The translations under genes were made by a program, and so were the position numbers. Below, in pieces: positions 16,674 through 56,214 of a stretch of DNA of 64,000 bases (position 1 is its first letter; the number at the start of each line of letters is the position of its first letter). Location: NCBI RefSeq assembly GCF_039555535.1, contig NZ_CP154630.1, forward strand, positions 3,113,001-3,177,000. Direction: 5' to 3'. The notes beneath the pieces are model-generated. The model made no database searches and was not told where the DNA came from. It saw only the letters and a list, made by a program, of their open reading frames with translations. This DNA comes from Stenotrophomonas maltophilia. GTDB taxonomy: Bacteria > Pseudomonadota > Gammaproteobacteria > Xanthomonadales > Xanthomonadaceae.

Positions 16674-16877
16674 TTATTCGGCAGAATTTTCGCTACCGGT
16701 GCCACCGGCTTCGTCACCGCGCTGGATGCGCTGATAGATCTCTTCGCGATGCACAGCGACGTCCTTCGGCGCGGTGATGCCGATACGCACCTGGTTACCC
16801 TTGACGCCAAGCACGGTGACGCTCACCGAGTCACCGATCATCAGGGTTTCGCCGACGCGGCGAGTCAGGATCAACAT
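16674..16877 (-). CDS. csrA: Carbon storage regulator CsrA (RsmA)
   Basis: 67 residues starting [16 protein letters not shown]. CsrA dimers bind GGA motifs in 5' leaders and repress or stabilise mRNAs, controlling biofilm, motility and virulence traits. The RNA-contact residues Leu4 and Arg44 (AVHREEI) are present. Usual family length with a slightly acidic tail. GGAGAC ribosome site 10 bases before the ATG. It lies 147 bp downstream of alaS, a common gammaproteobacterial arrangement, with a short TTGACG-containing inverted repeat (16924-16940) in that gap that may belong to its own promoter. Confidence 0.97.
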
Positions 16878-17024
16878 TTTTGTAAGTCTCCATGGAACCG
16901 TGTGGAAGGGTATCCCCCACCGGCTTGACGCTCCGTCAAGAAGCGCTACCACGACAAAGGGAAAAGATTCGCAATGGTACCGTCAGCCGTCCCGCTCCTA
17001 CAAGGAGGGGGACGGCCAGGTTCA

Positions 17025-28310: not shown

Positions 28311-28349
28311 GGGCAATCCTGCAGGGACAACGGCGGGTAGTTTAGTTCG

Positions 28350-28526
28350 GCAGGGCGGCGCCCTGCACCCGCCGAGGCCAGAGCGACAGCAACAGCCGGA
28401 GCAACAGCGGGTTTACTGAAGAATGGCGGGGTGGGTCCGGTTGCGGGGGCCGCTGCAAGTACGTCCATGTAAGCTCGGTCGCCGCATCCATGCGGCTCAC
28501 GCCCCCGCAACCGGACCCACCCCGCC
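28350..28526 (-). repeat. Composite covarying element, copy A
   Basis: Read on the minus strand: flank GAAATCTGTC (up to 28542), a 26-base arm 28526-28501, a 50-base core 28500-28451, the second arm 28450-28425 (perfect complement), a GCTGTTGC-rich tail, and a terminal hairpin GCAGGGC-GCC-GCCCTGC (28366-28350). The core holds hairpin GCCGCAT-GG-ATGCGGC and TAC-ATGGAC-GTA. Same layout as copies B-D with different stem sequences. It ends 40 bases upstream of folP, so it could be in the folP leader. Confidence 0.75.
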
Positions 28527-28550
28527 TTCGACAGATTTCCGCGATCTGCA

Positions 28551-28640
28551 GTAGATCCACGCCATGCGTGGATGAATCTCCATCGGAATCAAACATTTCG
28601 AATTGGAATCGAAATGTCTCCACGCATGGCGTGGATCTAC
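28551..28640. repeat. SMAG (GTAG) inverted dimer between composite copies A and B
   Basis: Arms of 22 bases, GTAGATCCACGCCATGCGTG at the left and the exact inverse ending GGATCTAC at the right. The spacer has its own inner inversion (ACATTTCGA / TCGAAATGT). The two composite copies extend outward from it, head to head. Confidence 0.88.
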
Positions 28641-28641
28641 C

Positions 28642-28949
28642 GTGTCGACCAAGGTCGACACCTACCAGCAGCTGCCGAAATCTGTCAGAGGTGGGGCGGT
28701 GTGGGCAGGCAGGACCGTTGGCGCCATGGATGGCGCCATCGAGCCCCCATGGGTGAGGGGGCTTTGCTTGCGAAGCATTGCTTCGCAAGCGCCCGAACGC
28801 ACAGCCGCCAGCGGCTGGGCCGGACCGCGGAGCGGGGTTTACGGCGTGTCCTGCCTGCCCACACCGCCCCGCCATCCCACGGACAGCCAGCTTCTGCTGT
28901 TGCTTCGGCCGTTGCTTGAAGCTTCGGCAGGTGCAGGGCGCAGCCCTGC
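28642..28949 (+). repeat. Composite covarying element, copy B (with 80-base insertion)
   Basis: Order: GTGTCGACCAAGGTCGACAC then CTACCA; CTGTCAGAG; left arm 28690-28715; core 28716-28847; right arm 28848-28873; GCCATCCCACGGA; CAGCTTCTGCTGTTGC; tail hairpin GCAGGGC-GCA-GCCCTGC. Arms pair over 26 bp with one G-T. The core is 132 bases instead of 52 because about 80 bases (with a CTTGCGAAGC/GCTTCGCAAG hairpin) interrupt it after GAGCCCCCATGG. It ends 9 bases short of the next gene's stop codon. Confidence 0.75.
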
Positions 28950-28958
28950 CGATACCCC

Positions 28959-42214: not shown

Positions 42215-44206
<1,992 letters not shown>

Positions 44207-44234
44207 AAAAGAAACGCCCCGCTGGGCGGGGCGT
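44207..44234 (-). terminator. Rho-independent terminator of the small secreted protein gene
   Basis: Stem ACGCCCCGC / GCGGGGCGT with a 3-base loop, followed on the minus strand by TTTCTTTT. Confidence 0.85.
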
Positions 44235-44279
44235 CGGGGGGCGAATCCCTTGCGGCAAGGGCTTCGGAGGGTGGAAGGA

Positions 44280-44513
44280 TTACTTCTTCTTCCTCGCCTC
44301 TTCTTCCTCTTCCTGCTGCGGGGCCGGCTGGCCCTGCGCCTTCATTTCGGCATTGGCCTGGGCGCGGCGCTTGGCCTTGGCATCGGCTTCGGCCTGCGCC
44401 TTGTCGGCCTGGTCACCCTGCTGCGGGGCCGGCTGGCCGGCGTTCTGCGCCACCACCAGCGGCACTGCAACGGCGGCAGCGGCCAGGATCGCAATGGTCA
44501 GCAACTTCTTCAT
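44280..44513 (-). CDS. Small secreted, charged helical protein
   Basis: 77 residues. Signal peptide MKKLLTIAILAAAAVAVPLVVA, then a low-complexity mature part of Gln/Pro turns (GQPAPQQ twice), an Ala/Lys/Glu/Asp helix (KAQAEADAKAKRRAQANAEM) and a tail EEEEEARKKK. It has its own terminator, so it is a real transcription unit. Divergent from parE. No known family; possibly a periplasmic disordered or stress protein. Confidence 0.75.
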   Translation of the reverse strand: MKKLLTIAILAAAAVAVPLVVAQNAGQPAPQQGDQADKAQAEADAKAKRRAQANAEMKAQGQPAPQQEEEEEARKKK

Positions 44514-44685
44514 GAGGTCCTCCTCGCGGTATGGCTTGGATGTTTCGACCCAACGGGGGTCGCCGGCGTTCAGATTCCAGCGACTGCCATTTTACCCCCT
44601 CCCCGCCGCCGAGGCTGAACCGCAGGCGTGCAAATTCGGCGCACAGACCGCACACTTGCGCGTCGCTCCGCGCTTTAGAAGATAG

Positions 44686-48943: not shown

Positions 48944-49212
48944 GCCGGGCCTGCGGCCCGGCACCCGCTGACGGCAACGGCAACGGCAAAAGCTGGCTTC
49001 CTGAGGGCTGGCGAGGTGGGGTGGATATGCAGGACACGCCGTAAACCCGTCCATGGGGGCTCGATGGCGCCATCCATGGCGCCAACGGTCCTGCATATCC
49101 ACCCCACCCCGCCGCTGACAGGTTCCTGCTGCTGTTGGTGGGTGCCGACCGTTGGTCGGCACGGGATCGGATCCCTGCTTCTGCTCTGGTAGGTGTCGAC
49201 CTTGGTCGACAC
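48944..49212 (-). repeat. Composite covarying element, copy C
   Basis: Read on the minus strand: GTGTCGACCAAGGTCGACAC then CTACC (49212-49188), a second related hairpin GTGCCGACC..GGTCGGCAC (49162-49142), CTGTCAGCG, arm 49113-49088, 52-base core 49087-49036, arm 49035-49010 (one A-C mismatch in 26), CCAGCTTTTGCCGTTGCC, and the tail hairpin GCCGGGCC/GGCCCGGC. The tail ends 8 bases past the S10 peptidase stop. Confidence 0.78.
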
Positions 49213-56000: not shown

Positions 56001-56214
56001 GTGTCGACCAAGGTCGACACCTACCAACAGCCGCGGGGAACTGTCAGAGGCGTGGCGGTGTGGGCAGGCGGGACCGTTGGCGCCATGGATGGCGCCATCG
56101 AGCCCCCACGGACGGGTTCACGGCGTGTCCCGCCTGTCCACACCGCCACGCCATCCCACGGAAACCAGCTTTTGACGTTGCGGTTGCGTCTGCGGGTGCC
56201 GGGTGCAACCCGGC
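56001..56214 (+). repeat. Composite covarying element, copy D
   Basis: A decayed SMAG (CATCCACGCATGGCGTGGAT, from 55977) precedes GTGTCGACCAAGGTCGACAC and CTACCAAC; then CTGTCAGAG, arm 56049-56074, 52-base core 56075-56126, arm 56127-56152 (one G-T in 26), GCCATCCCACGGA, ACCAGCTTTTGACGTTGC, and the tail hairpin GCCGGGT-GCA-ACCCGGC (56198-56214). It ends 9 bases from the neighbour's stop. The rest of the 294-base gap holds nothing else. Confidence 0.78.

Follow-up and report, generated by a model that had tools for sequence, protein, structure and literature searches.

Divergently paired repeats with TwoAYGGAY-like heads in Stenotrophomonas maltophilia and their possible link to RsmA

Four copies in the window form three elements

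We analysed a 64,000-nucleotide stretch of the Stenotrophomonas maltophilia chromosome (NZ_CP154630.1, positions 3,113,001 to 3,177,000; hereafter the window), which carries an rsmA/csrA gene and four copies, A to D, of a structured repeat unit that we call the head. A preliminary description of this DNA had proposed the four copies, and all are confirmed, with arms, inner stems, REP hairpin, CTGTC block and terminal hairpin as described; matches of a covariance model of the head (R1) to the whole genome place exactly four in the window, corresponding to copies A–D. Rather than standing in tandem, copies A and B form the two inverted halves of a single composite (28347–28952) with 32-nt terminal inverted repeats, two central REP types and two heads that read outwards. 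The features, in window coordinates unless a genome position is given, are as follows.

16677–16877, minus strand: rsmA/csrA gene (67 aa; PF02599, 91.3 bits, one match in the genome), the only one found and the proposed binding partner
28347–28378, unstranded: left terminal GC hairpin unit of the A/B composite, an inverted repeat with 28921–28952 (91% complementary)
28425–28526, minus strand: head A, with 26-bp arms (28425–28450 and 28501–28526) and a 50-nt core; R1 match G000:C1:3141424-3141527:-
28462–28469, minus strand: loop 2 of head A, CATGGACG, which fits CANGGANG; from sequence
28485–28492, minus strand: loop 1 of head A, CATGGATG, which fits CANGGANG; from sequence
28551–28640, unstranded: GTAGATCCACGCCATGCGTGGAT-type REP pair at the composite centre, an inverted repeat
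28642–28667, plus strand: REP hairpin GTGTCGACC/GGTCGACAC with CTACCA; from sequence
28682–28688, plus strand: CTGTCAG block immediately upstream of head B; from sequence
28690–28873, plus strand: head B, with 26-bp arms, loop 1 CATGGATG (28725–28732) and a loop 2 split by an insert; R1 match L171 2766-2951
28753–28834, plus strand: nested insert of about 80 nt after CATGG in loop 2 of head B, from by-eye comparison with uninterrupted heads
28921–28952, unstranded: right terminal GC hairpin unit of the A/B composite, partner of 28347–28378
49010–49113, minus strand: head C, single, between convergent genes (R1 match; gene calls)
G000:C1:3162003-3162120 (genome), minus strand: Rfam RF01731 match at head C, 35.6 bits, under the cut-off of 43
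49193–49212, minus strand: REP hairpin of copy C, GTGTCGACC/GGTCGACAC; from sequence
56002–56021, plus strand: REP hairpin of copy D; from sequence
56049–56152, plus strand: head D, single, antisense to both of its minus-strand neighbours (R1 match; gene calls)
56198–56214, plus strand: terminal GC hairpin of copy D, GCCGGGT/ACCCGGC; from sequence

CTGTC is the consensus upstream of heads across the genome (134 heads), and GTAGATCCACGCCATGCGTGGAT-type REPs are listed for Stenotrophomonas sp. SKA14 in the accessible text of PMC2817692. Nested inserts of about 80 nt, which start immediately behind CATGG in either loop as in head B, recur in some other heads (L005 1220-1413, L009 1286-1548, L017 1259-1442, L020 1668-1924 and L213); by eye, they add hairpins with AGGA or GGA loops, for example GGGTTGGGC-AGGAC-GCCCAACCC. 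Elsewhere in the window, an Rfam sX6 sRNA match (44192–44532, minus strand) scored 41.5 bits, barely above gathering.

The head holds two GGA-loop hairpins

Each head consists of a 25–26-nt arm of variable sequence, a core of about 52 nt and a complementary arm. The core runs in the order hairpin 1 (loop CATGGATG), an AGC-bearing spacer, hairpin 2 (loop CANGGANG) and a tail like GTTTACGGCG, and in the standard core the two GGA triplets start 23 nt apart. The outer stem and the two side-by-side hairpins are present (pairs counted in 33 heads; L102 aligned to the RF01731 model), and GGA stands in both loops on reading of 38 model-chosen rows (33 distinct). Some single heads of this genome have another tail, around CCACGAGGGGCTCCGCCGTTCGCC, in place of the GTTGC tail and GC hairpin.

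Among the R1-selected heads of this genome, 132 of 134 could be parsed by a rule that demanded C..GG..G in loop 1; the remaining two are L139 (loop 1 CACGGATG, with a different spacer) and L193 (loop 1 CATGAATG). Loop 1 is CATGGATG in 128 of the 132. Loop 2 had been described as a constant ATGGAC, a claim that gives way here to ANGGAN: it fits CANGGANG in 126 heads, with T, G, A or C at the first free position and C, T or A at the second, and is strictly AYGGAY in 60. Two or three of the six strings outside CANGGANG resemble a one-base register shift. Outside the genus, 140 of 155 heads were parsed and 139 have CANGGANG in each loop, counts that are biased because loci were picked by GGA-containing patterns and both the parse and most loci required GGA. 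We take CANGGANG to be the RsmA/CsrA-binding consensus, and its fixed and free loop positions presumably agree with the RsmE–RNA structure; at 23-nt spacing, we assume that one RsmA dimer could hold both loops of a head. The typical CsrA motif is given as A(N)GGA in the accessible part of PMC5864184.

Selection acts on the fold of one strand

The idea that the stems reflect selected secondary structure is borne out by covariation both within this genome and outside the genus, and is strengthened by strand asymmetry. In the 33 heads of this genome from which R1 was built (32 distinct), 97.6% of cells were paired, compared with 78.5% (s.d. 0.9) after shuffling. Both sides had changed in 24 of 35 pairs, a count as high as which appeared in none of 500 shuffles, and sliding the partner arm lowered pairing to 41–47%. 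For the analysis outside the genus, 212 alignment rows (171 distinct) were reduced to 155 heads by dropping 10 shorter than 95 nt and six antisense duplicates; in one of those kept (L324 2115-2221), a pair of GGA at the standard distance is missing. Here 96.0% of arm positions were paired, against 45% with shuffled partners, at a mean 5′ arm identity of 32%, which is near random for biased composition; core identity was 74% in the 97 heads of 104 nt. Arms that are near-random in sequence yet paired represent a clean case of selection acting on structure alone.

A C-to-T change on the two DNA strands yields G.T and A.C mismatches equally often. Imperfect pairs in the inner 23 arm positions of this genome comprised 81 G.T and 11 A.C cells, or 67 versus 10 in distinct contexts (p 1.7e-11, the contexts being not fully independent by descent). 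Outside the genus, the counts were 142 versus 26 cells and 121 versus 25 distinct contexts (p 2.6e-16, with the same dependence by descent). This excess of G.T on the head's own strand indicates that selection tells the strands apart, so the own strand must fold single-stranded. A cruciform in double-stranded DNA is excluded, because it predicts equal numbers of the two mismatches. A replication-strand mutation bias is likewise rejected, because G.T exceeded A.C on either strand and in each half of the contig, divided by coordinate rather than by origin (26:3, 16:1, 13:4 and 26:3 cells). The folded single strand in head orientation is thus most likely the selected form, with RNA as the simplest reading; strand-specific folding of single-stranded DNA would also be expected to produce an excess of G.T.

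Heads are numerous, divergently paired and biased towards gene 3′ ends

Searching the genome at the DNA level with the 600-bp composite as query gave 181 matches. With R1 we obtained at least 137 matches, which, after the removal of three antisense calls of listed heads, leave at least 134 heads at 93 sites; this number is a lower bound, being drawn from the best 150 of 6642 candidates, and a nested insert lowers the score of a head or hides it from the model. The sites comprise 41 pairs and 52 single heads, and every pair is divergent (41/41), with a spacing of 125–260 bp. All 93 sites are intergenic by codon-usage gene calls, which were checked by eye against open-reading-frame lists in the window.

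Heads are biased towards gene 3′ ends. The 92 head-bearing junctions scored (one site has no right-hand gene) include 36 convergent, 46 tandem and 10 divergent ones, compared with 21, 188 and 46 among 255 further junctions from these loci. Between tandem genes, single heads show no strand bias (13 sense, 14 antisense), and the gene adjoining the 3′ side of a head points towards it in 89 cases and away in 45. Given this orientation and the lack of a sense bias, transcription of many heads would have to start at a dedicated promoter or enter from the opposite side by read-through; the one composite that was scanned contains no sigma-70-like promoter and no terminator. The stems are very stable.

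The GTAG tag is absent from the heads and present on the central REPs. The preliminary description had pointed to a possible linked RAYT-type transposase, and this was not borne out: by the head model, none of the four Y1_Tnp matches in the genome has a head within 1.5 kb, and a RAYT-flanking element is rejected on this ground.

The head resembles TwoAYGGAY RNA

The repeat had been thought to represent an undescribed family, a view that finds no support for the head. A scan of the window against Rfam at gathering thresholds gave no match at the four copies, and weak matches over heads (miRNA families, Ysr224) fell under gathering and were judged to be long-hairpin noise. Searched against the genome, however, the TwoAYGGAY model (RF01731) gave at least 23 matches among the best 150 of 302 candidates, each of them within a head: 22 are on the R1 list and one lies in a head with a nested insert (L005). 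One match reached 44 bits (gathering 43) and the remainder scored 20.6–40.5 bits; of 14 control genomes, one had a match and none had one above the cut-off. By these scores the head would belong with TwoAYGGAY RNA, and the reading of the head as undescribed is rejected.

TwoAYGGAY, of clan CL00106, entered the literature in 2010 as a probable RNA with no function assigned, from human gut, gamma-Proteobacteria and Clostridiales (Weinberg et al. 2010, accessible text of PMC2864571). A 2014 paper predicts that RF01731 binds CsrA, and its legend describes the outer stem as poorly conserved (PMC4333381, accessible part). Heads share this arrangement of a poorly conserved outer stem followed by two GGA-loop hairpins. 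They differ from the TwoAYGGAY RNA of the accessible 2010 description (PMC2864571) in that they form at least 134 repeats in divergent pairs with REPs, and only the 60 of 132 loops 2 noted above are strictly AYGGAY. In the openly licensed literature, to which our search was confined, we found no report of the head motif as a high-copy repeat, in divergent pairs or in Stenotrophomonas. Within the same scope, we also found no description of the larger composite of divergent heads and REPs. The apparent novelties are that heads are so numerous, range across Gammaproteobacteria, keep a fixed divergent pairing, enclose a REP-filled centre, are swapped at one locus and lie preferentially at gene 3′ ends.

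Multiple GGA hairpin loops also characterize the sponge RNAs CsrB/CsrC and RsmX/Y/Z, as far as the accessible texts describe them (PMC4333381, PMC5864184). Each of these is a dedicated sRNA gene that bears many sites, whereas heads carry two sites per unit at many loci. Neither the CsrB nor the RsmZ model (RF00018, RF00166), the two covered by this search, gave a match over its cut-off in this genome. A weak CsrB-like match (G000:C1:1200563-1200649, plus strand; 27.5 bits against a cut-off of 71, E 1.7e-5 for one genome) could represent a conventional Csr-type sRNA. Another parallel is RsmU of Xanthomonas campestris, an sRNA that is processed out of a 3′ UTR and binds RsmA, as described in the accessible part of PMC7694677; it shares with heads its 3′-UTR position and GGA motifs and sets a precedent for a 3′-UTR RNA that sequesters RsmA. 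Unlike heads, and by that description only, RsmU is one locus with three to four GGA motifs. According to the same text, RsmA still bound after all four GGA had been changed, so GGA alone is an incomplete test of it. SMAG/REP and REPIN elements (PMC2817692, PMC3733652, accessible parts) resemble the composite in being intergenic and in their inverted arrangement, and REPs of this kind occupy its centre; heads are much larger, lack the GTAG tag and contain the two-loop core.

Heads occur across Gammaproteobacteria and turn over at a single locus

A search of related genomes by covariance model had been suggested earlier on the basis of the four copies; R1, built from 33 heads, matched in many genomes of the genus. 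With the best 65 candidates scored per genome, under filters stricter than those for this genome alone, heads were found in at least 28 of 37 genomes of the genus, this one included, and in at least 32 of 61 genomes of the order. Among the candidates scored, 9 of the 37 same-genus genomes gave no match. A degenerate core pattern was present in 20 of 85 genera of the order (60 of 299 genomes searched, with up to 239 copies per genome) and in 36 of 271 genera of the class (40 of 369 genomes), with this genome counted in each set; chance matches are excluded, because the reversed control pattern gave none in the 299 and 369 genomes. The carriers among the matches listed for one narrower pattern include Marinobacter, Thioalkalivibrio, Methylocucumis, Sedimenticola, Thiohalomonas and an endosymbiont of Lamellibrachia. 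Divergent orientation was seen in 16 of 17 close neighbours outside the genus (five of the 16 from one metagenome-assembled genome, SZUA-186), the exception being a same-strand pair (L254).

The core pattern was absent from all eight sampled genomes of genus g27, of the same family; genus g24, of that family too, has up to 239 copies. Genomes without a match (9/37 in the genus, 8/8 in g27) indicate that the element is dispensable. Of the 41 loci at folP, 30 were fetched, and 28 of these were informative (L210 and L220 end inside folP). Thirteen of the 28, this genome among them, have heads, with different head types at the same place and one interrupted by a nested insert (L213); 15 have none, and one of these (L224) retains the terminal hairpin unit only. 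Heads at this locus swap in place, appear and disappear.

Discussion

We propose, at a probability of about 0.6 and from sequence comparisons, that heads are RsmA-binding 3′-UTR RNAs that arise from read-through and jointly act as an RsmA sink. The proposal draws on the covariation, the G.T excess, the CANGGANG loops, the one rsmA gene, the kinship with RF01731 and its printed CsrA prediction, the intergenic convergent bias, the lack of a CsrB or RsmZ match over the cut-off, and the RsmU precedent. Speaking against it are the even split of single heads between sense and antisense at tandem genes, the orientation of the genes on the 3′ side of heads, the lack of a promoter or terminator in the composite scanned, the dispensability of the element and the alternative source of a G.T excess in folded single-stranded DNA. 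The RsmA protein is of ordinary sequence, with PDB sequence matches that include 2jpp and 2mf0-2mfh. An ATGGA just before the rsmA start codon (window 16889–16893, minus strand) would fit autoregulation.

RsmA binding, transcription, processing and titration are the steps that we infer. In the orientation of the head, two short CANGGANG-loop hairpins would be borne by a long clamp stem whose sequence is arbitrary. Read-through of a divergent pair would, by its geometry, yield one sense head whichever direction is transcribed. The long stem might then shield the head or allow RNase III to release it, and the resulting RNA could titrate RsmA.

The strongest rival, partly compatible with an RsmA sink, is a selfish REPIN-like element that carries or exploits RsmA sites. 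In its pure form, two inverted units around REPs would be moved by RAYT or by conversion between copies, and the hairpins would serve this movement and have no host function. High copy number, the fixed inverted pairing (41/41), REPs in the composite centre, presence/absence and head swapping at folP and the four Y1_Tnp matches all speak for such an element. However, no head lies near those matches, two f7 pairs (L057, L054) have, on reading, no GTAG REP between their heads, and copying alone would not give unrelated yet paired arms or CANGGANG loops with a free N. We consider this purely selfish origin improbable, at roughly one chance in five or six.

Somewhat less probable again is a 3′-end structure that acts independently of RsmA, by protecting mRNA ends or by stopping transcription from running on between convergent genes, which would account for the position of heads at gene 3′ ends and their very stable stems but leaves the invariant GGA with free flanking N, and the two-hairpin core kept across families, unexplained. 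A folded single-strand DNA site, attC- or HUH-like, for an unknown recombinase is very unlikely: strand asymmetry suits any single-strand fold and nested inserts lie inside loops, yet the loops follow the consensus for an RNA-binding protein, and Y1_Tnp, the enzyme class searched for linkage, has no head nearby.

An RsmA sink could extend, more speculatively and with the odds against it, to a dispersed RsmA reservoir. Some 270 CANGGANG-type sites, two per head, would lie in 3′-UTR-like RNAs, with the fold of each copy under selection and the heads multiplied as paired mobile units; RsmA activity would track total chromosomal read-through, and other Gammaproteobacteria might use the same strategy.

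With more than 100 copies and one rsmA gene, this genome makes the prediction of CsrA binding easy to test. If the RsmA-sink proposal is true, a repeat family, and not a dedicated sRNA gene, controls a regulator, and repeats that have been filed as palindromic filler would carry function.
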